From Flammeovirgaceae bacterium (lineage in GTDB: Bacteria > Bacteroidota > Bacteroidia > Cytophagales > Cyclobacteriaceae): 64,000 nucleotides of DNA. The DNA lies in the NCBI GenBank assembly GCA_021298355.1, contig JAJTEH010000010.1:1-64000 (forward strand), read 5' to 3'. Position numbers and translations under genes: made by a program. Below the pieces are notes generated by a model, which saw nothing but the letters and a program-made list of their open reading frames with translations, had not been told where the DNA came from and ran no database searches. This document shows positions 2,201-41,220 of this stretch, piece by piece (position 1 is the first letter of the stretch; every line of letters starts with the position of its first letter).

Positions 2201-4750
2201 ATGGCCGAAGAAAATGAAGGTCTGCAATCCGGCAGACAAAGCATCATCCCCATCAATATCGAAGATGAAATGAGAGCAGCCTACATCGATTATTCGATGT
2301 CGGTAATTATTTCCAGAGCCTTACCCGATGTACGCGATGGACTTAAACCCGTACACAGACGCGTGCTGTTTGGCATGTTAGAGTTAGGCGTAAACTATAA
2401 TAAACCATATAAAAAATCAGCCAGAATTGTAGGAGAGGTGTTAGGTAAATACCACCCACATGGCGACAGTTCTGTTTACGATACTATGGTACGCATGGCG
2501 CAAGATTGGTCCATGCGCTATCCCTTGGTAGATGGGCAAGGTAACTTTGGCTCCGTAGATGGCGATGCTCCCGCAGCCATGCGCTACACCGAAGCACGCC
2601 TACGCAGAATTGCCGAAGAAATGCTGCACGACATCAACAAAGAAACAGTTGATTTCCAACCTAACTTTGACGACTCCCTAACCGAACCCACCGTATTACC
2701 GGGCAAAATGCCCAACCTTTTGGTAAACGGTGCATCAGGTATTGCAGTAGGTATGGCCACCAACATGGCCCCACACAATTTAACCGAAGTAGTAGATGGC
2801 ATTCATGCGTATATCGATAACAACGATATCACCATCGAAGAACTAATGAAGTTCATCACCGCCCCCGATTTCCCAACCGGTGGTATCATCTACGGCACAA
2901 ACGGCATCCGCGAAGCCTACAGAACCGGAAGAGGCCGCGTAGTATTACGCGCCAAAGCCGAAATTGTAACCAACGACAATGGCAAAGACCAAATCATCGT
3001 AACCGAAATACCGTATCAGGTAAACAAAGCGCAGATGATCGAAAAAACAGCTGCGCTGATAAACGAAAAAAAGATTGAAGGAATTTCTGCCCTGCGCGAT
3101 GAATCAGACAGAGACGGTTACCGCGTTGTATACGATCTAAGAAAAGATGCCATGCCAAACGTAGTATTGGCCAATCTTTTTAAATACACCCAACTGCAAA
3201 ACTCATTCAACATAAACAATGTTGCACTGGTAAAAGGCAGACCCTACACCTTAAACATAAAAGAACTCATCCGCTACTTTGTAGAACACCGCCACGAAGT
3301 AGTAGTACGCAGAACAAAATACGAATTAGCCGAAGCCGAAAAGCGCGCACATATACTCGAAGGTTATTTAATAGCATTAGATAACCTCGATGAAGTAATC
3401 AGCCTCATCCGAAACTCTAAAGATCCCGAAACAGCCAAAACAGAATTAATGGCTCGTTTTGGTCTTTCAGAAATACAATCAAAAGCCATATTAGAAATGC
3501 GCTTGCAACGCCTAACCGGTTTAGAGCGCGATAAAATCCAGCAAGAGTACAAAGAAGTGCGCGAGTTGATAGATAAACTCAACGAAATTCTAGCTTCAGA
3601 ACCCATCCGCATGCAAATCATAAAAGATGAGCTAAGCGAACTCAAAGAAAGATATGGCGATAAACGCAGAACAGAAATCGTTCACACCGAAGAAGACATT
3701 ACCATAGAAGACATGATCCCCAACGAGGCTATGGTAATTACCATATCCAACCAGGGATACATCAAACGCACTTCATTATCAGAATACAGAACACAAGGAA
3801 GAGGCGGGGTAGGCTCACGCGGGGCAGCATCAAAAGAAGATGACTTTACCGAGCACTTGTTTATCGCAAATGCCCACAACTACCTATTAATATTTACCAA
3901 CTCCGGAAAAGTATTCTGGAAAAAAGCATACGAAATACCCGAAGGCACCAAAACCAGCAAAGGCAGAGCCATACAAAATCTGTTAAACATTGAGCCGGGC
4001 GATGTTGTAAGAGCAGTAATAAACGTGCGCAGCCTCGAAGACGATGATTACATCAACAATAACTACGTTATCCTGTGTACCGAAAAAGGCGTGATAAAGA
4101 AAACGTCCCTGGAAGCCTACTCCCGTCCGCGCGCAGCCGGCATAAACGCCATCACAATAAACGATGGCGATAAACTGCTAAACGCAGCCTTAACCAACGG
4201 CTCTAACCACATCATAATAGCCAAAGCCGAAGGCAAAGCCGTTCATTTCGATGAAAGCGAAGTAAGGCCAATGGGTAGAAATGCCGCAGGCGTTAGAGCT
4301 GTAACTCTCGATTCAGAAACAGACATTGTAATTGGCATGGTATGTGTAACACGCGAAGATGCCAACCTATTGGTTGTTTCTGAAAACGGCTACGGAAAGC
4401 GCTCCCCGATAGACGATTACAGAATAACCCGCAGAGGAGGTAAAGGAGTAAAAACCATAAACGTTTCCGATAAAACCGGAAAACTAGTGGCTATAAAAGA
4501 AGTAGTAGATAACGATGAATTAATGATCATTAACCGCTCTGGCATCACCATCCGGATAAAAGTAGATGAACTACGCGTTATGGGGCGTGCTACACAAGGA
4601 GTGAGGTTAATTAAGTTAAGCGATGACGACAGCATTTCATCAGTAGAAAAAATACAGAAAGTAGAAGGTGAAACAGAAACCGGAAGCGAAGCAGAACCGA
4701 ATACAGAAAACAATAGCGAAAACAATACAACAGAAGAAACCAATAACTAA
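2201..4750 (+). CDS. gyrA: DNA gyrase subunit A
   Basis: The breakage-reunion subunit of the A2B2 gyrase that introduces negative supercoils. The 849-residue protein has the full layout: the N-terminal winged-helix and tower region, the catalytic tyrosine Y129 in [10 protein letters not shown], and a C-terminal wrapping domain. The GyrA box is TRRGGKG at 743-749, which separates gyrase from topoisomerase IV ParC. The quinolone-determining region reads GDSSVYD with S90 and D94, equivalent to the susceptible S83/D87 of E. coli, so no target resistance is apparent. The last ~35 residues are an acidic E/T/N tail. The gene is followed after 25 bases by a TPR protein and may be co-transcribed with it. 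No gyrB lies in the window. Confidence 0.98.
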
Positions 4751-4775
4751 ATTTGACTCATAAACCTGAACGAAC

Positions 4776-5972
4776 ATGAAAAAAGTGATTCTTGTGCTTT
4801 TGCTGGCACCAATAATTGCCCTTGCACAAAAGCCCATTAAGCCCAACCTAAACAAGGCACTAAACCTTTGGAAAGATGGCAAATTAGATGAAGCAAAAGC
4901 CATGATAGATGTGGCAGAAACAGATGCAAAACTTTCGTTAGATGGTAAAACATTTTATTATAAAGGTTTGATCTACGCCTCTTTAGATACAACCAGCAAC
5001 GAAAATTTTAAAAAATTAGCCGAAAACCCATTAGACATTGCACTTGCTGCTTTTGATAAAGCCGAATCCATGCAAACAAAAGGAAAAGATTACTTCATAA
5101 TGGATGCCATGGGCCTACCTTTTCCTAAAACACAACAGATGGGCATATTGGCTGGGGCTTATTTAAACAAAGGTGCAGCAGCCTATCAGGAAGATGATTT
5201 TGAAAAAGCTGTTGGCTTCTTTAAGAAATCTCAACGCGTAAATCCAAAAGACACCACCGCTTGCTTTTATTCTGGCTACGCTAATTTTCAACGCGAAGCA
5301 TACAAAGAAGCTGTAGAAGATTTAAAACTCTACATCGTAAATGGTGGAACATCTCAAGATGCTTATTCTCTGATTGTAAACGCGTTAAATGGCCCACTCG
5401 AGCAAAAAGACGAGGCCTTAAAGATGGTTCGCGAAGCAAAAACTAAATTTCCTAACAATACCGATTTCCCTAAGGTTGAAATCGGAATATTGATTGACCA
5501 AAACAAAGTAGATGAAGCAAAAGGTGGTTTAGAATCTGCAGTAGCTAAAGAACCAACCAACAAAATCTTGCATTTCTATCTTGGTTACGTTAACTCAAAA
5601 CTCGAAAATTGGGAAGCCTCAAAAGCTAATTATCTCGAAGCGATAAAAATCGACAAAGATTATTTTGAAGCACATTACTACCTTGCTCAGATCTACCTGA
5701 TCGATGCAGAAAAAGTAAAACGTGAGATGAACAACTTAGGCATAAGCAAAGAAGACCAAAAAAAGAAACTCGATTTAGATAAAGTATTGGTTGAAAAATA
5801 CAAAACTGCATTGCCTTATTGGGAGAAAGCAAATAACATGAAGATAGAAGACAACAACACTAAAATAGAAGTGTTGGACAAACTAAGCATTATGTATTAC
5901 TACCTTGGCGAAGATGCAAAAGCAGCAGCCATCGAAAAGCAGTTAAAAGATTTAGGAGTAAACAACAACTAA
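4776..5972 (+). CDS. Secreted tetratricopeptide-repeat protein
   Basis: A signal peptide (MKKVILVLLLAPIIALA) precedes about 380 residues of helical TPR units. Typical TPR positions are visible in AYLNKGAAAYQEDDFEKAVGFF (about 126-147), ACFYSGYANFQREAYKEAVEDL and LHFYLGYVNSKLENWEASKANY. The protein is probably periplasmic and makes protein-protein contacts; no enzyme motif is present. It starts 25 bases after gyrA on the same strand and ends in a strong terminator at 5994, so it is the last gene of that unit. Its codon use is less C-rich than that of gyrA. The exact role is unknown. Confidence 0.8.
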   Translation: MKKVILVLLLAPIIALAQKPIKPNLNKALNLWKDGKLDEAKAMIDVAETDAKLSLDGKTFYYKGLIYASLDTTSNENFKKLAENPLDIALAAFDKAESMQTKGKDYFIMDAMGLPFPKTQQMGILAGAYLNKGAAAYQEDDFEKAVGFFKKSQRVNPKDTTACFYSGYANFQREAYKEAVEDLKLYIVNGGTSQDAYSLIVNALNGPLEQKDEALKMVREAKTKFPNNTDFPKVEIGILIDQNKVDEAKGGLESAVAKEPTNKILHFYLGYVNSKLENWEASKANYLEAIKIDKDYFEAHYYLAQIYLIDAEKVKREMNNLGISKEDQKKKLDLDKVLVEKYKTALPYWEKANNMKIEDNNTKIEVLDKLSIMYYYLGEDAKAAAIEKQLKDLGVNNN

Positions 5973-8080: not shown

Positions 8081-9736
8081 TCAGCTAGATTTCAATCGTT
8101 TGAAATAATTGATTAATCCATTAGTTGATGAATCGTGAGACGAAACTTTTTCGTTATTGTTCAGCTCGGCCAGTATTTTCTTAGCTAGTACTTTGCCTAA
8201 TTCTACTCCCCACTGATCAAAACTATATATGTTCCAGATTACGCCTTGCACAAAAATTTTATGTTCGTAAAGTGCAATAAGCGCTCCAAGTGTTTCTGGT
8301 GTTAATTGCTTTAGTAAGATGGAATTAGTGGGCTTGTTTCCTTCGAAAACTCTGTACGGTGCGTGGAAGGTAATTTCATCTTCTGTAAATCCAACTGCTT
8401 TTAACTCTGAGGCAACTTCTTCGTAAGGTTTACCATTCATAAGAGCTTCCGGCTGCGCAAAGAAGTTAGATAATAGTTTTGCGTGATGGTCGCCAATAGG
8501 ATTGTGCGAGTTAACCGAAGCGATGAAATCGCAAGGTATCATCTTTGTGCCTTGGTGAATTAATTGATAAAAAGCATGCTGGCCGTTTGTGCCCGGTTCG
8601 CCCCAGATTATCGGGCCGGTTTGGAAATGCACAGGATCCCCGTTTCTATCAACAGACTTACCGTTGCTTTCCATATTTCCTTGCTGAAAATAAGCTGCGA
8701 ATCTGTGAAGGTATTGATCATAAGGAAGTATGGCTTCTGATGCTGCTCCGTAAAAATTATTGTACCAAATGCCAAGCAAGGCCAGAATTACCGGGGCGTT
8801 TTTATGGAATGGTTCGTTTCTAAAGTGTTCGTCCATTTGGTAAGCACCTCGTAAAAGTTTTTCGAAATTAGAATAACCAATTGTGCAGGCTATACTTAAA
8901 CCGATGGACGACCAAAGTGAATAACGACCACCAACCCAATCCCAGAATACAAACATGTTTTCCGGATTAATGCCAAATTCTTTTACAGCTTTCTCGTTGG
9001 TAGATACGGCTACAAAATGTTTGGCAACATCGCCTTTTTGATTGGTTTGCTGTAAAAACCAAGCCCTTGCGCTTTCTGCGTTGGTCATGGTTTCTTGTGT
9101 AGTAAAAGTTTTAGAGGCAATGATAAAAAGAGTAGTTTCTGGATTTACTTTTTTTAACGTCTCTGCTATATGTGTACCATCTACATTAGAAACAAAGTGT
9201 GGCTGAATACCTTGCCAATAAGGCTTTAACGCTTCGGTTACCATATACGGGCCGAGGTCCGATCCGCCAATTCCTATGTTTACAATATCGGTTATCTTTT
9301 TTCCGGTAAAACCTGTGTGTATTCCGTTTAGTAATTGTGTGCTAAACTTTTCCATTTGGGCCAACACATTTTTAACATCGGGCATTACATCTTTACCATC
9401 CACAACAATTGCTTTATCACTAAAATTTCTTAAAGCGGTATGTAAAACAGCTCGCCTTTCGGTTTGGTTAATCGCTTTGCCGGTAAACATATTTTCGATG
9501 GCACCTTTTACTTCGCATTCTTCTGCTAGCGCAATTAAAATCGAAATTGTTTCTTCATCAATCAGATTTTTAGAATAATCGATGAGAATATCTTGAAACT
9601 GAATTTGAAATTTCTCGAATCTTTGGTCATCATCTACGAACAATTCTTTTAAATGTGTGGCTTGCATGGTTAAGAAATGCATTTCCAGTTTTTTCCAAGC
9701 CTGGGTTTCGGTAGGATTTATTTTAGGTAAAGACAT
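8081..9736 (-). CDS. pgi: Glucose-6-phosphate isomerase
   Basis: Interconverts glucose 6-phosphate and fructose 6-phosphate. The 551-residue protein (ATG at 9736, [14 protein letters not shown]) has the long Pgi architecture with two SIS subdomains. Visible landmarks are [10 protein letters not shown] in the first, [13 protein letters not shown] (the family signature), the glutamate of QGNMESNGK and the C-terminal histidine and lysine region ([16 protein letters not shown]). The ATG at 9760 would add eight residues that match nothing typical. It is the first gene of the glycolytic cluster; pfkA follows after 73 bases. No clear promoter was seen in the 100 bases behind alkB. Confidence 0.96.
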
Positions 9737-9837
9737 ATAGCCATTTAATTTGAAATGCAAAGAAAAGATTATGACGGTGATATCACAATCAAATAAATGA
9801 TTTAGTAAATAGGATTAAGCAAAAGATCGAGAATAGG

Positions 9838-10920
9838 CTATGTTATCGATTGCATTTGCCACTCATCTAATTTCTTATTCATCAGGTTAAACCATAGGGG
9901 AGGTACCAACGCAATAAGAATCATTGTAGGATAGCCATAAGGTAGTTGAGGGCTTTCATCATAATGTTCTAACACCTGATACCGTTTATGTGCATACGCG
10001 TGGTGATCGGAATGGCGTTGTAATTGAAATAAAAAGAAATTGCTTATTAGGTGACTAGCATTCCACGAATGTAAAGGATTAACTTGTTCGTATCTGCCTG
10101 ATGGTAATTTTTTTCTCTGTATTCCGTAATGCTCTAAATAATTTACAAGTTCCAATAAGGTAAAGGCTACTATACTTTGCGAGAAAAAGAACAGAGGTAT
10201 AGACAAAAGAATTTCTCCACTTAGTAAATAGCCAAATACCAACAAAGCCAAGCAAAACAAAGCTGGTAATACTTGATAGTGAATCATTTTGTTATCGATA
10301 GAAAAGAAAGATTTATTTTTTTGAATCAATCGTACGTTTTCTAAATGCCATGCATGCTTGTAGCCTACAAAAACGGATTTAAACCAAAACCGATAAAAGG
10401 TTTCGTTCTTTTGTGCTGTTGCCGGATCTTCCGGTGTGGCAACATAAACATGATGCCCACGATTATGCTCGATATAAAAATGCATATAGCAAACAGTCAT
10501 CAGCAACACCTGACTGTAAAATCTTTCGATCTTTGGTTTTTTATGGCCTAACTCATGCGCTACTGTTATGCCGATACCGCCCGTTACTAAGCCTGTACTA
10601 AGTATAAAGCAAAACCATTCAAAAGCTCCATGTATTTCTTCTTGTGTAATTACCCAAACACACCAAAACAAGAATGCCAATTGAAGATACATCCACACAT
10701 AGGTTACCAATCTGTAAAAGTATCGCTCGGTTTCAAGTGCGATAACTTCTTTTTTTACATTAGAAGTATCTAAGCCAATTAAGTAATCGGCAAAAGGAAT
10801 GAAGATGAATACAAAAACTATTGTGCTCATTTGCCAATATCCATTTAAATAAACACCCGCAACAACAAGTGCCGGAAGAATAAAGGCTGTAAAAAATCCA
10901 AGTCGTTTAAGTAAAGCCAT
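9838..10920 (-). CDS. alkB: Alkane 1-monooxygenase (AlkB type)
   Basis: An integral-membrane diiron hydroxylase expected to oxidise the terminal carbon of medium or long alkanes. From the ATG at 10920 the protein has 360 residues, several membrane helices and all AlkB histidine motifs: HELGH 122-126, EHNRGHH 151-157, NYLEHYG 260-266 and LQRHSDHHA 300-308. The last two separate AlkB from fatty-acid desaturases of the same superfamily. No rubredoxin or rubredoxin reductase gene is adjacent, so its electron donor must be encoded elsewhere. It is divergent from the DEAD-box gene and shows no clear promoter. A related xylene-monooxygenase-like role cannot be excluded. Confidence 0.9.
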   Translation of the reverse strand: MALLKRLGFFTAFILPALVVAGVYLNGYWQMSTIVFVFIFIPFADYLIGLDTSNVKKEVIALETERYFYRLVTYVWMYLQLAFLFWCVWVITQEEIHGAFEWFCFILSTGLVTGGIGITVAHELGHKKPKIERFYSQVLLMTVCYMHFYIEHNRGHHVYVATPEDPATAQKNETFYRFWFKSVFVGYKHAWHLENVRLIQKNKSFFSIDNKMIHYQVLPALFCLALLVFGYLLSGEILLSIPLFFFSQSIVAFTLLELVNYLEHYGIQRKKLPSGRYEQVNPLHSWNASHLISNFFLFQLQRHSDHHAYAHKRYQVLEHYDESPQLPYGYPTMILIALVPPLWFNLMNKKLDEWQMQSIT

Positions 10921-31768: not shown

Positions 31769-31800
31769 TTTCAATTTTTATATCTAGAGAGTTAAGTTTG
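31769..31800 (+). promoter_or_regulatory. Promoter of the giant adhesin gene
   Basis: TTTC (31769-31772) and TAAGTTTG (31793-31800) are spaced by 20 bases; the second is an exact TAnnTTTG match. Transcription would start near 31807, 21 bases before the ATG at 31828. The alternative TTG start at 31798 lies inside the box and is excluded. Confidence 0.6.
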
Positions 31801-31827
31801 TTGTTTAAAATACCTAAAATCTGTCTT

Positions 31828-33141
31828 ATGGTTCGCTTTACGTCTGGAAAGAGATTGTCCCAAATCTTTGCTCTGACCATCCTTATTTTTTGTTATTCAC
31901 TTCAATCTGTTGCCCAAACAGGTCCAGGTGGTGTAGGAAATGCAACTGGTGCCAATAGCCAGCCAATTAATGTGCTTTGGCTAAGGGGAGATGCCGGTGT
32001 ATCAACCAGTGGCTCGTTAGTAGATACATGGGCAGATCAATCCGGAAACAGTAACAATGCTACAGGAGCCGGAGTTACACGCCCTACATTTAACGGCACA
32101 GATGCAAATTTTAATAGTTTGCCTTCTGTTACTTTTCCGAATACGGCAGCTTCAAACTTCTTTTTACAAGTTGCAGACAACGACAACCTGGATAACACCA
32201 ACAACTTGTCTGTGTTTGTGGTGTCGCGACCGATAACTACAACAACCATAAATGGTTTATTGTCTAAACGCTCAGCTGCAGCAACAGATCAATCGTATTT
32301 TTTTGAAATCACAAACGCCCTGCGTTATAGAGCTACCATTGCTACAGGTGCAACCAGCAACATGGTATCTGTAAATGCCACCGCCTCTCAAGCCAATGTG
32401 TTAAGTTTTATAATGAATGGCTCAACAAGAACAGGTCTTTTAAACGGTGGTAATAGCGCAACACCTGCTTCAGCAAGTTCAATTCCTAATACAACATCAA
32501 ATTTGTTTATAGGTAGTTACGATGCAATAACGAACAACAACTTCGAAGGCGAAATTTCTGAGGTAATAATATTTAGATCTACACTAAACTTACCACAACG
32601 CCAACTAATAGAAAATTATTTAAGTGCTAAATACAACATTACGCTCGCGGGAGGTGCCGATTTTTATGGTGGCGATGTAGCAGGAACGCCAACTTTCAAC
32701 CACGATTTTGATTTGGCCGGATTTGGCCAGCAAGGTGGCGAACAACATACCATTGGTAATTCGAGAGGTTTTATTGTTGCACCTGCCAACGGTACACTAA
32801 ATGCAAATGCAGAATATTTACTTACAGCACACAATGGCGCAGCAAACTCTGCGGTAACAACAAACTTAGGAACTGGCGGAGTAGTACAACGTTGGAACAG
32901 AACCTGGTATATTGATAAAACTACCCCGGGCACGTTAGATGCCGACTTAACGTTTGATTTTAGTGAAGGTATCAACGGACAGTTTCCGCAGAATAAAGAC
33001 AATTACGTTTTACTACGATTAAACACCGGAACAGGAAATTACGATGTAGTAACTTCTATTGCTTCCGGAGATAAAACTTTATCTGGCGACCAAATTACAT
33101 TTAGAGTTACCGATACTGATTTGTTAGCGGCAAAAAATTAA
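31828..33141 (+). CDS. 5' fragment of a giant T9SS surface protein, cut by a cassette
   Basis: A 437-residue frame from the ATG at 31828. It has a signal peptide (MVRFTSGKRLSQIFALTILIFCYSLQSVAQ) and a LamG/concanavalin-like region from about 45 (NVLWLRGDAGVST, VDTWADQSGNSNNATG, then ENYLSAKYNITL), a layout common at the N-terminus of Bacteroidota surface proteins. Codons after position 33123 belong to the inserted cassette and give the wrong end LAAKN. It has no T9SS sorting domain, so the product, if made, should stay in the periplasm. With the cassette removed the frame continues into the 3' fragment at 33589. Confidence 0.85.
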   Translation: MVRFTSGKRLSQIFALTILIFCYSLQSVAQTGPGGVGNATGANSQPINVLWLRGDAGVSTSGSLVDTWADQSGNSNNATGAGVTRPTFNGTDANFNSLPSVTFPNTAASNFFLQVADNDNLDNTNNLSVFVVSRPITTTTINGLLSKRSAAATDQSYFFEITNALRYRATIATGATSNMVSVNATASQANVLSFIMNGSTRTGLLNGGNSATPASASSIPNTTSNLFIGSYDAITNNNFEGEISEVIIFRSTLNLPQRQLIENYLSAKYNITLAGGADFYGGDVAGTPTFNHDFDLAGFGQQGGEQHTIGNSRGFIVAPANGTLNANAEYLLTAHNGAANSAVTTNLGTGGVVQRWNRTWYIDKTTPGTLDADLTFDFSEGINGQFPQNKDNYVLLRLNTGTGNYDVVTSIASGDKTLSGDQITFRVTDTDLLAAKN

Positions 33142-33271
33142 ATGCGGCAAAACATAATTCAGTTTATACTTTGCAGAAATTTTATTTCAAGATAAATCGG
33201 GCGTTTGCTTTAAAAGAGTAGAACCAATCGAGCAATAATTTCTGAACTTGAACTTTCGCACTTTTCAAGCA

Positions 33272-33415
33272 ATGAGAATTCAATCAGATAAAATCACTTT
33301 CAGTTTTTATATTGAAATATTTTCTTTTCAAGTCGTTCAGAGTTTTTGCTTTAAAAGATTTGGCCATCGGCAAGCAATATTGTTTTGCTTGGAACAACCG
33401 CGCATTTCAAGATAG
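33272..33415 (+). CDS. Small cassette ORF, 47 residues, doubtful
   Basis: An ATG at 33272 opens a 47-codon frame rich in F, I and Q and ending in ISR. Earlier in the cassette a 17-codon frame (33142-33195) also ends in ISR, and both contain RQ followed by I and L/F residues, so they look like two decayed copies of one unit. Neither has a recognisable domain. The ORF may be a remnant, or the cassette may not code for protein. Confidence 0.2.
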   Translation: MRIQSDKITFSFYIEIFSFQVVQSFCFKRFGHRQAILFCLEQPRISR

Positions 33416-33439
33416 AGTTCCAATACTCTAGAATTTTCA

Positions 33440-33588
33440 GCCGCTAACAACAGCTATTTGTTATGGCTTTTGTTTTGGCAAATGAAATGGGAATTAATAA
33501 ATTTAAAGAAACAAACTGCGAACTGACAGAGCACTTCGCGCACTAAAGCCACACCAAATAGCTTAGACCGATTGACGGAGTTTATACG
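33440..33588 (+). repeat. attC-like recombination site of the cassette
   Basis: GCCGCTAAC (33440-33448) is the left outer arm; its partner GTTAGCGGC is formed when the cassette circularises (G33588 plus 33124-33131). Inside, AGCTATTTG (33452-33460) pairs with CAAATAGCT (33555-33563), then after a 3 x 3 loop TGGCTTT (33464-33470) pairs with AAAGCCA (33545-33551). About 75 bases form the variable top. The spacer on the right is long (24 bases against 3 on the left), unlike canonical short attC sites. Confidence 0.7.
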
Positions 33589-36500
33589 TTGGGAACTTTA
33601 AACCTAACAACAAGTCCTGTAACAGGTGTTTCTAACAGAACTTGGTACAGCTACCAATCCGGTAACTGGAACGATCCTCTGGCCTGGACCTTAGATGGAG
33701 GTATTACCCCTTTATTTGTTAACCCCGGAAACGAAATTCCGGGTATTACAGATAACGTAGTAGTAACTTCCGGCAGAACCATTACCATGAACGTGAATAA
33801 CGTTCAGATAAATAGCATGCAGGTAATCGGAACACTTGATGTGGCCGCTACAACAGGACATAATTTTGTTACAATATCGGGTAATGGAAGAATTCGATTA
33901 TCCGGTTCAACAGATAATTTCCCGGCTGGCTCAACTACATCTTTTGCCGATAATAGTATAGGAGGTACTGTAGAATTTTATGGTACAGGGAAATCGTTAA
34001 CAAGCAGCAGAACCTACAACAATGTTGAAATTGCCATGACGGGCACCTCAGATCAGGTAACCATGCTGGCTAATCAAACGCTTAACGGAAATCTTACCAT
34101 TAACAACGGTATATTTAGAATAAACGATAATGTTACGCTTGCTAACTTAACAATTACCTTATTCGGTAATGTTACGGTAAACGCAAATGGTGGTATTCGC
34201 GTTGGTAATACAGCCACTACAACCCGCCACGAGTTTAATTTGCATGGAAATTTTGCGAACGATGGAGGAACAGCCTATTTTACTAATCGTACTGCTGCAG
34301 ATTTTACCAATGACGATACATCGGGTTTTGCAGATTTTAATACCATTAACCCAACACGCGATCAATCAGTATTATGTAATGGCGAAACACGCTTCTCAAG
34401 AATAGAAATTAACAAAGGGTTAACCAACACTTATAAAACAACAATTTCTGCATCGCAAGTAAGTTTCTTTAATTTGTTTGGAAGAGCAAATTTTTCTGTT
34501 GATGCCGCACAACTTACCACCAACGAGAATTCCATCGGTTTAATATACGGCACCGTTGAGCTTGGCGATAATGTGGTGGTTCCTGCCCTAAACACAACTG
34601 GAAATTATTCCATTTTTACAGGAGCTCGTTTATGGGTAAATGGCGCTACGGTTTCCAAACTTGGTCCAAATGCCATTGTACCTTACGGTACCCTTAGAGT
34701 ATCTGCGGGTTCTCTTTCTACCCAAATTGTTGGTGGAGCTGCGGGTATAGTTACACGAGATAACGGTATCATTATTATAGAAGGAGGAAGCATCACCACC
34801 AACATCATGCGAACTTCTGTATTAGGTGTAAACTCAGATGGTAGCTACATTCAATCAGGTGGTACAGTAACAGTAACAGGAGGTGGAGGAGGAGATTACG
34901 CCATTTTTAGTTTAACCTACCCTGGAAATGTTTTTAACATGAGTGGCGGTACATTAATTGTACAAGGTGCAAGTAGCCTCGGCACAGCATCAGCAAGAGG
35001 TACTGTATTTATCAACTCAGATCCAAGTAATGTTAGCATTACAGGAGGTACGGTTATCTTTGAAGCCGATCAAACAACAACATATAGAATAACCTCCAGA
35101 GCACCATTCTGGAATGCCATTTTCAGAGCAACCGGAGGTACAAGAACGTTTCAATTATTAGGAACTTCCTCAGGAAATCCTCCTTCTAATGAAGCTACTT
35201 TACCCATTCAACCTTTGGTTGTGTTAAATGACTTAACAATAGAGTCTAACGTAACATTTGATGCAAACAGTGCCGATGTAACCATTGGTGGAAATTTAGA
35301 TATAGCAGCAACGGGTATCTATACGCACGGAACCAATACAACAACTTTCAATAGTTTAGGAGTTGCCTCTATAAATTTGGCCAATACAACAACTACCCAA
35401 ACTTTTAATAACCTTGTAATCAACAAAAATTCGTCTTCTGATGAGGTAGTTATTACCTCTGGTCGTGCAGCACCTAACGCAGCCATTCAGGTTAATGGAA
35501 CATTAACAGTAAACAGAGGCTTGTTAGATTATGGAGCATTTAGAATTGCAGCAAACGCTGATGTTAGTTTAGCCAGTGGTGTAACCATTGGCAGAACAGC
35601 AAGCACAGGGCGTTTGGTATTCAATGCAACTGTAGATCAAACCATCTCTACGTTGGGAGCAACCATTGTAAGTATGGAGATCAACAAAACAACAGCTAAT
35701 AGAACTGTTTCGTTGGCTTCCGGAAATTTAACGATAACAGGAACGCTGACTTTAACAGATGGTGTTTTTAACATCAACTCAAGAAGATTAACCTTAACCG
35801 GTGCCACCGCAGCTATTGCCGGTACGGGTTACAGTATTACTAAAATGATACAATTGGCAGGTAATGCTGGTGATGGTGGACTTGAAATGTATTTTAATGC
35901 AAATGAAACAATTGTTTACCCCATAGGTACAAACGCAAACTCAACGGTGCGCTATACGCCTGTAACGGCAACAACACAAAGTTTTGCAGACGATGGTCTA
36001 ATCCGTATCAGTATAGAGGATCGTCTTCTTCAATTAGCAAACTTGCCTGCACCAAATAGTTTAAGTTACAACTGGAGAGCCAACCATTCAAACTTTACAA
36101 CGCTCCCCCGTATTAGCTATCAATTCACATATGATCAAGTTGATGCCGATGGATCAGAAGCAACATATGTACCGGGTAAAGTTTTAACGGGTACTCCATT
36201 TACACGTTCAAGTGAAGACGCTACCGATATAAACACTACAACCAATGTTTTAACATTTAACGGGACTACGACAAGCTCCGGATTTCCGGGTGCAGGATTT
36301 ACATTAGAAAACGCTGCTTACACAGGTGGTGCCAGCGCCATGTTTACCGGAACCCCTGAAACGTATTACAACCTTAATACAGGGCAACTAGGATGGGAGA
36401 ATGATAATAAATGGTCTTTGATAAGCCACGTGGGCGCGCCAACAACTCAATCTCCAGGCCCCGGTGATGTTGTGATGATGAGAAACTTTGGTGAAGGTAA

Positions 36501-39500
36501 TGCCAACTCATGGGTATTAATGAATGTGGATGTAGAAGTTGCAGCCGTAATTTTTGATAATACCGCTGGAGGATGGCCACCCCGCATTACAGTAACAGAT
36601 GGAAGAAGTGTTTCGCTGGGCGTTGTATCGGGTACGGGAGAAATTATGGTGGAGGTAAATCCTGCATTGCCTAATTTAAATACAACAGATATCGGAGAAT
36701 TCGCCAGACAAGCATCCAGTGTATTTATTTATAAAGTTGAAAATGATGCCACGTATAACTTATACTCAGCCTTTACAGAATATCCAAACCTGAGAATTGA
36801 AGGAAGTAATGGTAGTGCCAATACGGGTTTACGCGTAATGACAAACCCTAACCCTGTAACCATCAACAGAGATTTGTGGTTGGATTGGGGTGGAACGTTC
36901 AGAGCAGGGAATACAGTAAACATATTACGCGATATGCGCCCCGGAATTGGGGGCGGAGGAGGCGGCCGTTTCCAGTTTGGTGAAGGCGGAAGCTATACAG
37001 TAAACGTTACCCGCGATTTAATAAGCAACAACAGCGCAAATAACAGAGTAGAAGTATTGAATAACACGCCATCAACGTTGGTACATACGCTAAGGGTTGG
37101 TGGAAACATAACCATGACCACCGGACAATTAGATCTGTTTAATGGCACAGGCACAGCCAACAACGCTGTGTTAGAATTAAACACTGCAACTTCGGGTAGC
37201 TTTACAGATGTATCCGGTAATACGCCTGATTTGTTCCGCATTGTAATGAACAAAGGAACTTCTACAGCTACTACCTTTACATTATCGGATAACGTTGTGC
37301 TAAACGGACCATTCGATGGCGCAACCAAACCGCTGACACTTCAGAATGGGTTGTTAATTATGGACGATGCAGCACTTAATTTTACGCTAACATCGGGTGG
37401 TGCTGATTTTACCATACCAGGTTCTGCCGGGTTGGAAGTGCGCCAAGGTAGCGCTTCTACTTCTACAACCAGTACCAATGCCAATATTGTATTAGATGGT
37501 TTGTTAAGAGTAAGTGGTGGAACAGTAACTGTTGATGCCGGTGGTACTACAGACACAAATTATATAGAATATACAAACTCAGGTAACGCGGCCATCGAAA
37601 TATCATCCGGATCGTTAACCGTTGCAGGTCAGGTGAGAAGACAACTTACAAGTGATACAGGTGTACTTCGATTTACACAATCTGGTGGAACTTTTATAGC
37701 AGGTACCGAGGCGGCTCCTACAACTACAAGAGGTGTATTTGAAGTACTTAACACAGGAAGCCAGTTTAATCACTCAGGAGGTTCTTTCACAATTGTGAGA
37801 GGTATAAACAGCACAACAGTACCTAGTTTATGGTTAGAACCAACAACATCTAACGTTACAAGTGCATCAACCATAAATATTGGAAATGCTTCAACACCAG
37901 CGGGTGTTAATTCTCAGAACATAGGTATTCGCTCTTCAGCTACTTTACATAACATTACGATTAGCGGATCAAACAGCCCGGTAACGCGTTTGTATAACTT
38001 GCCTTTATCACTCAACGGCACTTTAACTATTGCAGCAAGTAATACTTTTAATGCCAATGGTCTGGGCTTAACAATAAGAGGAGATATGGTTGTTAATGGC
38101 TCCTTTATTGCCAATGGCAATACAACAACTTTTTCTAACTCAACAGCCGCATCTATTTCTGGAACCACTTCTGCCTTAAGCTATTTTAACTTTGTAAAAT
38201 CCGGAGTTGGTACGTTAACACTTGCAAGAGACATCAACATAAACAGAGATTTACAAGTTAATGCCGGTATACTGGCACATACTGGCTTTACCATTACCTT
38301 GTCAGGTAACGCTCAGCTAAACTCAGCTGTAACATCGACAAGCGGTAATGGTTTAGTCTTTGCAGGTTCTGCGCAGCAACAATTAACCAGAAATATTGCC
38401 GGAACAACCTCATTAGGTATAGTAACCATTAACAACACTAGTGGTGTTGTTATACCCGATGGAAACGGATTTAACTTTACGATCAATAATGGGTTAAGAA
38501 TGCAAAGAGGTGTATGGGATATCGGTAGTAGTTTACTAACGCTAAATACCAATGCTTTGATTACGGCTGTTAATCCGTTCTCAGTAACGAATATGATCCA
38601 AACCAACAGTTCGTTTACTGACTTTGGTGTGCGAAAGATTTTCCCTGCAAACTTTAATTCTTCGGTATTTGTGTTCCCGGTAGGTCAGTTAGCTTATACT
38701 CCGGTAACGTTTAATTTTGTTTCACCAAATACTACAGGTACTAATGCTGCGGTTATTACTGTTCGACCTGCCAATGAAAGACATCCATCCATAGTTCAGG
38801 ATGATGAACTGCCGCTTGGTGCAGGGCCGGAAGATTTCGATGATTTACAAAACTCCTTGCAATATCATTGGATCATCAATGCAGATAATATATCAAATAC
38901 GAATTTCCGTTCTACCATGACGTTACAATACGATCAATCATCGGTTGCAGTAACAGCACCCAGAACAGAAGCTAATTATATTCCTGCCAGAATTTTATCA
39001 GACAACAATACAACTAACAGCATTAATAAATTCACCACTACCGATTTAGATGAAACTACCAATACCATTACATTCGATTTTGCCTCGGTTACGGATGCCG
39101 GTATTTCAGGCGAATATTTTGCCGGGGTAGATTTAGCCATACCAGATAATGTTCCTACTTACAGAACAACCGGTTCTGGTAATGTAAATGCGGCTATCTA
39201 CACACCTGCTGTGCCGGGTGGCGGAGCTCCAACAGGTGCTCAGGTAATAATAGAACCAGGCCATACTGTTACATTCAATATAAATAACGTTTCTCTATAT
39301 GAAACAACGATTAGCAGTGGTGGTATCTTATTAATTCCTACAGGTTCTATCGGACATCGGTTGGGTATCTTAAATGGCACTGGAGATTTACGTGTTGAAT
39401 CTAACACAACTAGTGTTGTATTGCCTGCTGCTGTTTATGACGACTTCTTCTCATGCTCAGGCGGTGGATTGGTGTATGGTGGTACCGGTTCCTACGAAAT

Positions 39501-41220
39501 TCTGGGAGGTATATCAAGCTTGCGTAACCTTACTATTTTAGGTTCGGGAAGTAAAACATTTGCCAATAACGATGTTACTATCTGTAACGATTTAACAGTA
39601 AATATGACTTCCGGTTCGCTTTCTATTGCAAATAGCAGAGTGATAACGGTTCAAAATGATGTCATCATCAACAATGGAGGTGGCTTAAATACGCTCACTG
39701 GAACATTATCTGTTACAAGAGATTTTGTACAATCGGCTGGTTCGTTTAATGGCGGTACCGCTGGTACTAAAACAATTGGCAGAAACTTAACTGTAAGCGG
39801 TGGCTCGTTCACAACGGGTACAGGTACAGGTAACATCATTCAGATTGCCGGAAACATGACGGTGGCCGATGCCGCAACCTTTACAACGGGTGCAGCCAGC
39901 TTAACAGGTCAAGAAATTATTTTTAACGGAACAACACAGCAAACTCTAACAGGAAATTTTGCCGGTACGCGTGCATTAAACAGACTTGATATTAACAACA
40001 GCGCTGGTTTACTATTGGCAAGTAACGTTACCATAAATTCTGAGTTAGGGCTAACCAATGGTTTAATTACGCCAGGTACTAACACTTTATTGTTAGGTTT
40101 AACAGCTATCGCTACTCCAACCTTAGGAAGTTTAAATTCATTTGTTAATGGTAAGTTGTTTAAAGTAATTAACAATGGAACTTTCAACTTCCCTATTGGT
40201 AGAACAGCAGCAGCTTCAAACAGATGGAGACCAGGAGCCTTGTTTAACACAACAGGTGGAACACAAACCTGGGATATGGAATATGTACCCGGTGCAGCTA
40301 CAGGAGCTGTTGCCAACGCACCGGCACCTCGCAATAACCCAGTGAATAATTTTACTTCTGCAGATCCATTGGTGTTGCGAATTGCGAGAGGAGAATACTG
40401 GAGAGTTTCTGACGGTTCAGGTACAGCTAATGGCAGAACAGCCAGAGTAGGTTTAAGTTGGGGAACGGCAAGTGATGTATCAGCAATACAATCGCAACGC
40501 GAATCAATGAAGGTGATGACTTGGAATGGAACCAACTGGACAAACAGTGGTGGACAAAATTTCTCTGTTGGTCACACACAAAGTGCTGGTACGTTTCAAT
40601 CAGTTTCTACGCTTTCATTCTCCGAGAATATTGTAACCCTTGGTTCAACTGAAGTTGCAAATCCTTTACCAGTTGAGTTACTAAGCTTTACCGGTTTTTA
40701 TGATAATGGCGTAAACATCATTGAATGGAAAACGGCAACGGAGATCGATAATGATTTCTTTGAATTGCAACGATCTGTAGATGGTGAAACATTTGAAGTA
40801 ATTGGAATTGTTAAAGGTGTTGGAACAACAACTGACTTAACGAGATATAACTATCGTGATAACAAGCCTGTTGCTGGTAATAACTATTACAGATTGAGAC
40901 AGGTTGATTTCAATGGTCAATTTGAATACAGCGAAGTAATTAAAGTTATGGTTGATGAAAATGCTTTTGTATTCAACATCAATCCTTATCCTAACCCGGT
41001 AAACAGAAATAACAAACTGAAAACAGAATACCTGAAGAGTAATGACGAGGATGCTGTTGTGTTACTTCGCGATTTAACCGGCAAAGTAATGGAACAAGCT
41101 TTTGTTAATGGAACTACAGGTACTGTAGAATTCAACATCGATAATAAAAACCCAGGTATGTATTTAGTAGAAATGCAACAGGGAGAAAGAAAGATTGTGA
41201 AGAAGATTATCGTAAACTGA
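33589..41220 (+). CDS. 3' fragment of the giant T9SS surface protein
   Basis: An open frame of 2543 codons with no signal peptide or plausible own start; its first codon TTG belongs to the interrupted gene. Three large modules are visible, starting near residues 18, 930 and 1855 with a GNW/W...P.GD.V-type segment and closing with a YPIG/FPVG/FPIG segment; between lie beta-helix-like T/N/G/S-rich repeats, as in adhesins. Near 2360-2440 is the PLPVELLSFTG domain that often precedes the sorting domain, and the last ~80 residues are a T9SS type A domain (YPNPVNR, GMYLVEM, KKIIVN). Without the 5' part it cannot be exported. Reunited, the protein would have about 2975 residues. Its stop is two bases from that of rsmE. 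Confidence 0.85.
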   Translation: MGTLNLTTSPVTGVSNRTWYSYQSGNWNDPLAWTLDGGITPLFVNPGNEIPGITDNVVVTSGRTITMNVNNVQINSMQVIGTLDVAATTGHNFVTISGNGRIRLSGSTDNFPAGSTTSFADNSIGGTVEFYGTGKSLTSSRTYNNVEIAMTGTSDQVTMLANQTLNGNLTINNGIFRINDNVTLANLTITLFGNVTVNANGGIRVGNTATTTRHEFNLHGNFANDGGTAYFTNRTAADFTNDDTSGFADFNTINPTRDQSVLCNGETRFSRIEINKGLTNTYKTTISASQVSFFNLFGRANFSVDAAQLTTNENSIGLIYGTVELGDNVVVPALNTTGNYSIFTGARLWVNGATVSKLGPNAIVPYGTLRVSAGSLSTQIVGGAAGIVTRDNGIIIIEGGSITTNIMRTSVLGVNSDGSYIQSGGTVTVTGGGGGDYAIFSLTYPGNVFNMSGGTLIVQGASSLGTASARGTVFINSDPSNVSITGGTVIFEADQTTTYRITSRAPFWNAIFRATGGTRTFQLLGTSSGNPPSNEATLPIQPLVVLNDLTIESNVTFDANSADVTIGGNLDIAATGIYTHGTNTTTFNSLGVASINLANTTTTQTFNNLVINKNSSSDEVVITSGRAAPNAAIQVNGTLTVNRGLLDYGAFRIAANADVSLASGVTIGRTASTGRLVFNATVDQTISTLGATIVSMEINKTTANRTVSLASGNLTITGTLTLTDGVFNINSRRLTLTGATAAIAGTGYSITKMIQLAGNAGDGGLEMYFNANETIVYPIGTNANSTVRYTPVTATTQSFADDGLIRISIEDRLLQLANLPAPNSLSYNWRANHSNFTTLPRISYQFTYDQVDADGSEATYVPGKVLTGTPFTRSSEDATDINTTTNVLTFNGTTTSSGFPGAGFTLENAAYTGGASAMFTGTPETYYNLNTGQLGWENDNKWSLISHVGAPTTQSPGPGDVVMMRNFGEGNANSWVLMNVDVEVAAVIFDNTAGGWPPRITVTDGRSVSLGVVSGTGEIMVEVNPALPNLNTTDIGEFARQASSVFIYKVENDATYNLYSAFTEYPNLRIEGSNGSANTGLRVMTNPNPVTINRDLWLDWGGTFRAGNTVNILRDMRPGIGGGGGGRFQFGEGGSYTVNVTRDLISNNSANNRVEVLNNTPSTLVHTLRVGGNITMTTGQLDLFNGTGTANNAVLELNTATSGSFTDVSGNTPDLFRIVMNKGTSTATTFTLSDNVVLNGPFDGATKPLTLQNGLLIMDDAALNFTLTSGGADFTIPGSAGLEVRQGSASTSTTSTNANIVLDGLLRVSGGTVTVDAGGTTDTNYIEYTNSGNAAIEISSGSLTVAGQVRRQLTSDTGVLRFTQSGGTFIAGTEAAPTTTRGVFEVLNTGSQFNHSGGSFTIVRGINSTTVPSLWLEPTTSNVTSASTINIGNASTPAGVNSQNIGIRSSATLHNITISGSNSPVTRLYNLPLSLNGTLTIAASNTFNANGLGLTIRGDMVVNGSFIANGNTTTFSNSTAASISGTTSALSYFNFVKSGVGTLTLARDININRDLQVNAGILAHTGFTITLSGNAQLNSAVTSTSGNGLVFAGSAQQQLTRNIAGTTSLGIVTINNTSGVVIPDGNGFNFTINNGLRMQRGVWDIGSSLLTLNTNALITAVNPFSVTNMIQTNSSFTDFGVRKIFPANFNSSVFVFPVGQLAYTPVTFNFVSPNTTGTNAAVITVRPANERHPSIVQDDELPLGAGPEDFDDLQNSLQYHWIINADNISNTNFRSTMTLQYDQSSVAVTAPRTEANYIPARILSDNNTTNSINKFTTTDLDETTNTITFDFASVTDAGISGEYFAGVDLAIPDNVPTYRTTGSGNVNAAIYTPAVPGGGAPTGAQVIIEPGHTVTFNINNVSLYETTISSGGILLIPTGSIGHRLGILNGTGDLRVESNTTSVVLPAAVYDDFFSCSGGGLVYGGTGSYEILGGISSLRNLTILGSGSKTFANNDVTICNDLTVNMTSGSLSIANSRVITVQNDVIINNGGGLNTLTGTLSVTRDFVQSAGSFNGGTAGTKTIGRNLTVSGGSFTTGTGTGNIIQIAGNMTVADAATFTTGAASLTGQEIIFNGTTQQTLTGNFAGTRALNRLDINNSAGLLLASNVTINSELGLTNGLITPGTNTLLLGLTAIATPTLGSLNSFVNGKLFKVINNGTFNFPIGRTAAASNRWRPGALFNTTGGTQTWDMEYVPGAATGAVANAPAPRNNPVNNFTSADPLVLRIARGEYWRVSDGSGTANGRTARVGLSWGTASDVSAIQSQRESMKVMTWNGTNWTNSGGQNFSVGHTQSAGTFQSVSTLSFSENIVTLGSTEVANPLPVELLSFTGFYDNGVNIIEWKTATEIDNDFFELQRSVDGETFEVIGIVKGVGTTTDLTRYNYRDNKPVAGNNYYRLRQVDFNGQFEYSEVIKVMVDENAFVFNINPYPNPVNRNNKLKTEYLKSNDEDAVVLLRDLTGKVMEQAFVNGTTGTVEFNIDNKNPGMYLVEMQQGERKIVKKIIVN

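Follow-up and report, generated by a model that had tools for sequence, protein, structure and literature searches.

Why is a surface-protein gene of a Flammeovirgaceae bacterium broken in two by a short piece of DNA, and what enzyme could have placed it there? In this study, we have addressed this question from the window (the whole stretch of 64,000 nucleotides in which the gene lies), from the genome it comes from and from related genomes. In the ORF analysis, an in-frame insert divides one gene of the window into two frames, 31798-33141 and 33589-41220. This confirms what a reading made from the sequence alone had proposed for the gene, for which 'adhesin' was that reader's name, with the 5' frame given here as 31798-33141. 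The 5' frame continues to a stop at 33139-33141 within the insert, and its host part has a match to Laminin_G_3 (lectin-like) below cut-off. The longest ORF starting within the insert encodes 55 aa, and a 14-mer, TTTGCTTTAAAAGA, is found twice in it (33204-33217 and 33345-33358). The features of the locus are collected in the table.

Table. Features of the split gene and of its insert (window coordinates)
Feature	Position	Strand	Evidence
5' part of split T9SS surface-protein gene	31798..33123	+	ORF; gapless against the intact G002 gene
Inserted integron-type cassette, 447 bp	33124..33570	+	Empty site in G002; copies of its ends on C64, C2, C61
Cassette 5' end TTAGCGGC (R' half of circular attC)	33124..33131	+	Preceded by G33123; complementary to 33440-33448
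attC-like site	33440..33570	+	Inverted repeat, fold z, covariance model match
R'' GCCGCTAAC	33440..33448	+	Opens the attC-like site
L''	33452..33460	+	
L'	33555..33563	+	
Cut	after G33570	+	
3' part of split gene, starting ATT GAC GGA (IDGVYTLGT)	33571..41220	+	ORF; gapless against G002
Por_Secre_tail, T9SS C-terminal sorting domain	40987..41214	+	Pfam PF18962, E 7.7e-9

The ends of the insert were fixed with partial copies of it elsewhere in the same genome. The left end, G33123|T33124, is where the sequence-only reading had put it: a copy of the first 243 bases on contig C2 (93% identity) and one of the first 267 bases on C64 (90% identity) both start at insert base 1. The right end had been placed 18 bases too far. 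A copy on C61 covers the last 133 insert bases (315-447, to window 33570) at 96% identity and then goes on with GTTGTGGGC; this end at base 447 makes the insert 447 bp long (33124-33570), not 465 bases ending at G33588 on a G|TT, with G|ATT as the right-hand junction. As 447 and 465 are both multiples of three, restoration of the frame could not distinguish them. The bases 33571-33588 (IDGVYT) are host-gene sequence, so the insert-free frame reads FRVTDTDL-IDGVYTLGTLNLTTSP, with TDTDL-IDGVYTLGT at the junction in place of the DL-GTLNL that had been proposed. The left boundary is identical in three contexts and the right boundary in two.

Alignment with close relatives agrees with these ends. 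Among 39 genomes, its own included, the same-genus genome G002 carries the uninterrupted gene: its match to the query stops at window 33122 and resumes at 33571, a single base lying between the two parts, and our flanks joined at 33123|33571 align to it over 445 bases at 77% identity, without a gap. A right end at 33588 is ruled out by this empty site and by the C61 copy. Two other genomes, G004 (71%) and G001 (70%), span the junction without the insert, with small gaps elsewhere. The target is G|ATT (G|AT) and no target duplication was seen in the empty-site comparison. For the stray cassettes on C66 and C61, we found no simple counterpart in G001-G004 that would give a further clean empty site. 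The consensus GNT given for secondary sites in an excerpt of PMC4618277 fits the G|ATT target.

The architecture of the insert is that of an integron cassette. The insert opens with GTTAGCGGC, complementary to the R'' box that it carries at 33440-33448, and it terminates in an attC-like hairpin; in a circle, the end and the start of the cassette would make one attC-like site, while in the gene this site continues into the host sequence. For the 140-nt site, the z score of folding is -4.7 on the bottom strand and -2.7 on the top strand. With a covariance model of such sites (248 kb searched, E up to 0.1), the single match in the 64-kb window is 33438-33581, at E 3.7e-12, a site which is itself among the 41 that built the model, and the insert is the only match on its contig at E <= 0.01. 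The locus therefore shows a single cassette, a G|NT target outside any array and a known empty site, which are the features of attG-type insertion. Off-array insertion of cassettes is a known kind of event; Loot et al. are said to have reported in 2024 integron cassettes inserted at attG sites, with secondary sites of the form GWT or GNT. Taken alone, the insert is a further example. The idea of an off-array cassette captured at a G|WT-type target was thus right apart from its right end, and the sequence-only reading overstated how rarely insertions within genes have been described, as cassette insertion at non-classical genomic attG sites is already published (excerpt of PMC12901181). What differs from the attG cases is that we see here a natural event within a gene, one that would have been made by a non-canonical integron.

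The source genome (3.6 Mb in 82 contigs, rated 97% complete) holds, in its cassette arrays, the cassette ends that the sequence-only reading had hoped to find in further copies (C2, C64 and C61) but no intI in the accepted sense, since nothing in this assembly scores above the IntI cut-off. Five matches to the tyrosine recombinase family are present. One of them, C64:366-1532 (-), encodes a 388-aa tyrosine recombinase (Pfam PF00589) and lies about 100 bp from the copy of the start of this same cassette, within which the contig ends. C2 likewise has an array at its end, with six cassettes or more. The 65 bases ahead of the first cassette, which reach the G of GTT, are 83% identical between C64 and C2 and stand before different cassettes on the two contigs, which makes them a candidate attI seen in two copies in one genome. 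Over the whole genome, the covariance model finds 22 sites at E <= 0.01 (six on C2, four each on C5 and C22, three on C66, two each on C61 and C54, one on C25), eight of which belong to the 41 sites it was built from. No tyrosine recombinase is found on the contigs of the C22 and C66 clusters. The attI-like stretch on C2 (L010, G000:C2, 15042-15106) precedes the first cassette of its array with no recombinase adjoining, and a tRNA gene (L010:11877-11950) lies about 3 kb before it.

The recombinase on C64 is close to known families without belonging to them by score. Against TIGR02249 (integrase_gron) it reaches 202.1 bits, under the cut-off of 265, and the match comes in two pieces that skip profile positions 178-238, as is nearly the case for the two Xer proteins of the same genome; its best NCBIfam match is the XerA model NF040815, at 217.4 bits, under the cut-off of 220. 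The IntI-specific domain (patch III / I2 helix) is absent from its family, which we refer to as patchless. The spacing from KGxKxR to HxxRH is 58 residues in the C64 enzyme and 58-61 in 77 of 81 patchless rows, while 28 of 29 IntI rows have 100 (dropped or unmeasured were the patchless rows L061, where the script matched another motif, L054, L071 and L088; among IntI, L129 was unmeasured and L123 not found, and the Xer row L147 was a mis-hit). An alignment of 55 members takes 394 columns for a 388-aa protein, and therefore none of the 55 carries the IntI insertion. R242, K267, H331, R334, H357 and Y366, which we take to be the catalytic residues, are invariant in these 55 members. At the N-terminus, the family also has a domain of about 110 aa, for which the model gives strands and helices; folded alone (L006 366-1532 (-), residues 1-110), it gave no PDB match at E <= 0.001.

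A first tree with three groups only made the sisterhood of IntI and the patchless family trivial, and it was redone with XerA. In the tree with Xer and XerA, the patchless family and IntI each form one clade, and 26 patchless and 14 IntI sequences lie on one side of a branch (100/98) with ten Xer and two XerA sequences on the other. By this phylogeny the patchless family is sister to IntI, and the tree is compatible both with an earlier loss of the patch in this family and with its gain in IntI. The patchless clade is joined by a wider group whose N-terminal match is weak, and sites are found in three of that group's four stretches, one of them weak. Family f70 (L193, L195, L198, L200) forms a deeper branch of the patchless clade, with open frames of 406-480 aa and C-termini of the SPLDDL- or NP(I/M)DNL-type.

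If this family recombines cassettes, arrays would be expected beside its members, and they are there. We scanned genome contigs and kept the best 80 of at least 554 relatives, which are Bacteroidota by title, one being titled Chlorobiota. At these loci, on which it was partly trained, the covariance model finds 186 attC-like sites, every one of them on the recombinase strand, 184 downstream of the recombinase and two upstream (L067, L108). A hand-written detector, which on shuffles returned two sites downstream and four upstream, found 86 in 282 kb downstream versus 10 in 727 kb upstream. Where at least 1 kb of downstream sequence is available, 37 of 45 loci have a model match and eight have none. 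The contig ends within 1 kb downstream in 35 of the 80 loci and upstream in 0 of the 80, a clustering such as repeats would cause. Nine further stretches had no part in the model: six of them contain 29 matches, all downstream and on the same strand as the patchless gene, and in L219, L221 and L225 no site-model match was found.

The ends of the cassettes also fit together as in a circular attC. The five bases after GTT are complementary at all five positions to the five before AAC at the cassette's own end in 30 of 38 intervals between consecutive sites, and within one site, which joins two cassettes, in only 4 of 67 (random pairs 2.6%; Fisher p 9e-15); in the C2 array, all five intervals show this complementarity of start and R''. 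A structure-free chain search, whose detector is palindromic and strand-blind, recovered 16 cassettes in L096 and 13 in L075, where shuffles gave at most three. The highest shuffle chain overall was five, in the canonical locus L217. Chains of 3-4 at K=5 are noise (L014, with no model matches, gave four, but one at K=6), and the K=5 chains of L204, L217, L219, L221, L222, L224 and L225 are no better than shuffles. In 86 cassettes from eight arrays, the longest ORF is forward in 68 and reverse in four, with 14 having none of 50 aa. In some arrays (L073, L076, L085, L056 and others), the common 140-nt sites are accompanied by a second size class of about 204 nt.

The sites share the plan of attC and differ in the asymmetry between their two strands. 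The consensus hairpin has R boxes, spacers of 3 and 6 nt and an L stem, with compensatory change in 13 of 18 pairs. We compared 10 patchless loci with nine of the 16 fetched canonical IntI loci, from the same phylum, both sets being chosen after the chain search. In the classical attC sites that this search recovers at the nine loci (34 stems of 41 sites), the 5' arm holds 81 of the 85 bulged bases, whereas the patchless loci have 27 bulges in 51 stems of 89 sites, without arm bias (12 vs 15). Instead, 95 of their 162 mismatches have A in the 5' arm and C in the 3' arm, the reverse (C.A) being seen seven times; at the nine canonical loci, A.C accounts for 2 of 33. The alignment of sites, with 41 rows, has one pair of columns with A.C in 40 of them and a second with A.C in 20. 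A top-strand A.C is a bottom-strand G.T wobble, and therefore the strands differ though no base bulges.

The same bias is seen when the comparison is extended to 84 patchless loci, those with chains of three or more being counted. At K=6, ungapped stems of score 9 or more were obtained for only 106 of 158 chained sites, and 98 of these 106 have A.C while five have C.A; at K=5, such stems come from only 98 of 231 sites, with A.C in 92 and C.A in four, so that a third to over half of the chained sites have no clean stem. By locus, A.C exceeds C.A in 32 of the 34 with usable stems at K=6 and in 27 of 29 at K=5, with two ties and no reversal each time. Fifteen canonical loci, L218 being left out, yielded ungapped stems 0 times in 32 sites and once in 53. 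Scarce extrahelical bases and A.C asymmetry go together with the patch-less enzyme. A.C-type sites are also found at one of 16 canonical IntI loci, L218 (G043:C1), where four of them (2833-5513 and 9209-10330 are cited) lie about 4 kb from IntI; no patchless recombinase turned up when the roughly 17 kb before them were scanned for its motif.

Given an exact insert with its empty site and cassette architecture, and arrays beside a recombinase family in which the IntI insertion is missing, it is very probable that a Bacteroidota integron cassette recombined into an attG-type G|AT, the 388-aa patchless enzyme of C64 being the most likely recombinase. In the reaction that we propose for the C64 enzyme, an excised cassette circle would carry a complete attC-like site (R'' GCCGCTAAC...G|TTAGCGGC), and one of its strands would fold into a hairpin. 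The recombinase, probably acting on single strands, would cut after the G of GTT and join the cassette to attI or a further attC and, on rare occasions, to a G|AT of the genome. Because the enzyme is without the reader of extrahelical bases, the strand would be chosen by means of the conserved mismatches, which are A.C on the top strand and G.T wobbles on the bottom one.

The explanation that competes most with this model, though we consider it unlikely, is that the patchless enzyme recombines double-stranded sites as Xer does and that the hairpin is kept for some other reason. An enzyme without the I2 helix does resemble XerA in model score and in structure rank, and I2 is stated to underlie single-strand recombination (eLife, excerpt of PMC7790495). 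On the other hand, the stems vary in sequence and are kept by paired changes in 13 of the 18 pairs, and a double-stranded site would have no need of a directional A.C mismatch. Less probable still, and in our view improbable, is that a canonical IntI, acting now or formerly in trans, made the arrays and the insert, with the patchless recombinase as a bystander. The A.C-type sites near the IntI of L218 and our own C22 and C66 clusters, without a tyrosine recombinase on their contigs, would agree with it. Yet the 97% complete assembly has no IntI above the cut-off, canonical IntI passes that cut-off in only 1 of 73 genomes of the window's class versus 83 of 223 in the other classes of the phylum, 39 of the 80 loci (the best 80 of at least 554) have sites 3' of the patchless gene, and canonical sites are structurally different.

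Two explanations do without an integron. A transposon-like or RNA-derived repeat (MITE, REP/RAYT type) could well be short, have inverted repeats and lack a long ORF, as the insert does; we nevertheless regard it as very improbable, since the empty-site comparison shows no duplicated target, the two ends match each other's complement as they would in a circular attC, the cassettes form chains with mostly one forward ORF each, and at gathering scores the only Rfam match in the four sources searched (the window, L010, L071 and L075) is a tRNA, in L010. An assembly artefact, in which two contigs were joined through a cassette repeat, is the least probable of all: cassette copies are repeats and other contigs do end in them, but this insert is about 4 to 11% different from its copies, both flanks belong to one gene and their join is gapless against the sister genome.

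The integron cassette and the patchless enzyme that we favour as its recombinase can now be set beside known systems. In canonical integrons, the array lies on the 5' side of the integrase gene. The system described here shares with them (VchIntIA / 2a3v) a tyrosine recombinase of the sister clade with a C-terminal end of the SP(L/I) type, G|TT junctions, R''/R' boxes, spacers of about 3 and 6 nt, hairpin sites and arrays of mostly single-ORF cassettes. It differs in that the recombinase is without the 42-residue IntI insertion and has the extra N-terminal domain of about 110 aa, in that the array stands on the 3' side of the gene, and in that the sites have few extrahelical bases and A.C mismatches instead. 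Archaeal XerA (NF040815, 5hxy, 4a8e) provides the best NCBIfam and top structural matches of the patchless enzyme, but the family falls elsewhere in the tree, in which XerA is represented by two sequences only. XerA resolves chromosome dimers (excerpt of PMC8138268). For the integron-like subgroup of tyrosine recombinases of Smyshlyaev et al. (2021), the excerpted text describes the insertion as not fully conserved, yet essential for integron function, and in that excerpt no cassettes or attC are tied to members without the patch (PMC8138268).

These comparisons matter since the gain of I2 is held to have made integrons and I2 is said to occur in no other protein of the databases (excerpt of PMC7790495). 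Direct proof of its causal role is lacking because deletion of I2 kills IntI1, according to the same excerpt. A natural sister family without I2, found beside hairpin sites mostly without the bases that I2 reads, makes the necessity of I2 directly testable. Furthermore, IntegronFinder accepts integrases by the patch, as described in an excerpt of PMC9668308, and so does another survey (excerpt of PMC2426708), so that patchless platforms would not be counted as complete integrons where the patch is required. In the excerpted part of the 2022 IntegronFinder paper, one complete integron is given for Bacteroidetes proper, in Salinibacter ruber M1 (PMC9024848), and Bacteroidota are listed among the integron-bearing phyla in an excerpt of PMC8618304. 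Among the matches listed from the open-licence PMC literature, we recognised no description of patchless integrons with cassettes.

Based on the sequences at hand, a patchless integron with hairpin sites mostly devoid of extrahelical bases appears to be a new form of integron. We lean, with some reserve, towards the broader view that Bacteroidota hold a second great integron lineage, sister to the known one, which would recombine hairpins without the I2 helix and use the A.C mismatch as strand signal. If this is true, cassette capture either predates the helix that is credited with the origin of integrons or does not depend on it, and these integrases would be missed by any survey in which the patch is a requirement. 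The split gene suggests that cassettes of patchless integrons reach ordinary genes; the system behind the insert would be the larger novelty, and it is invisible from the window alone.

With regard to distribution, the patchless N-terminal domain is found in 15 of 295 genomes of the class at E <= 1e-20, our own included, and in 43 of 295 at 1e-6, and the site model matches 26 of 29 near relatives, again with our own among them. A plasmid of Acinetobacter baylyi (NZ_CP104737.1, 19262-19885), a host far from Bacteroidota, encodes a piece with 50.5% identity to the patchless recombinase over residues 179-386 of the latter.
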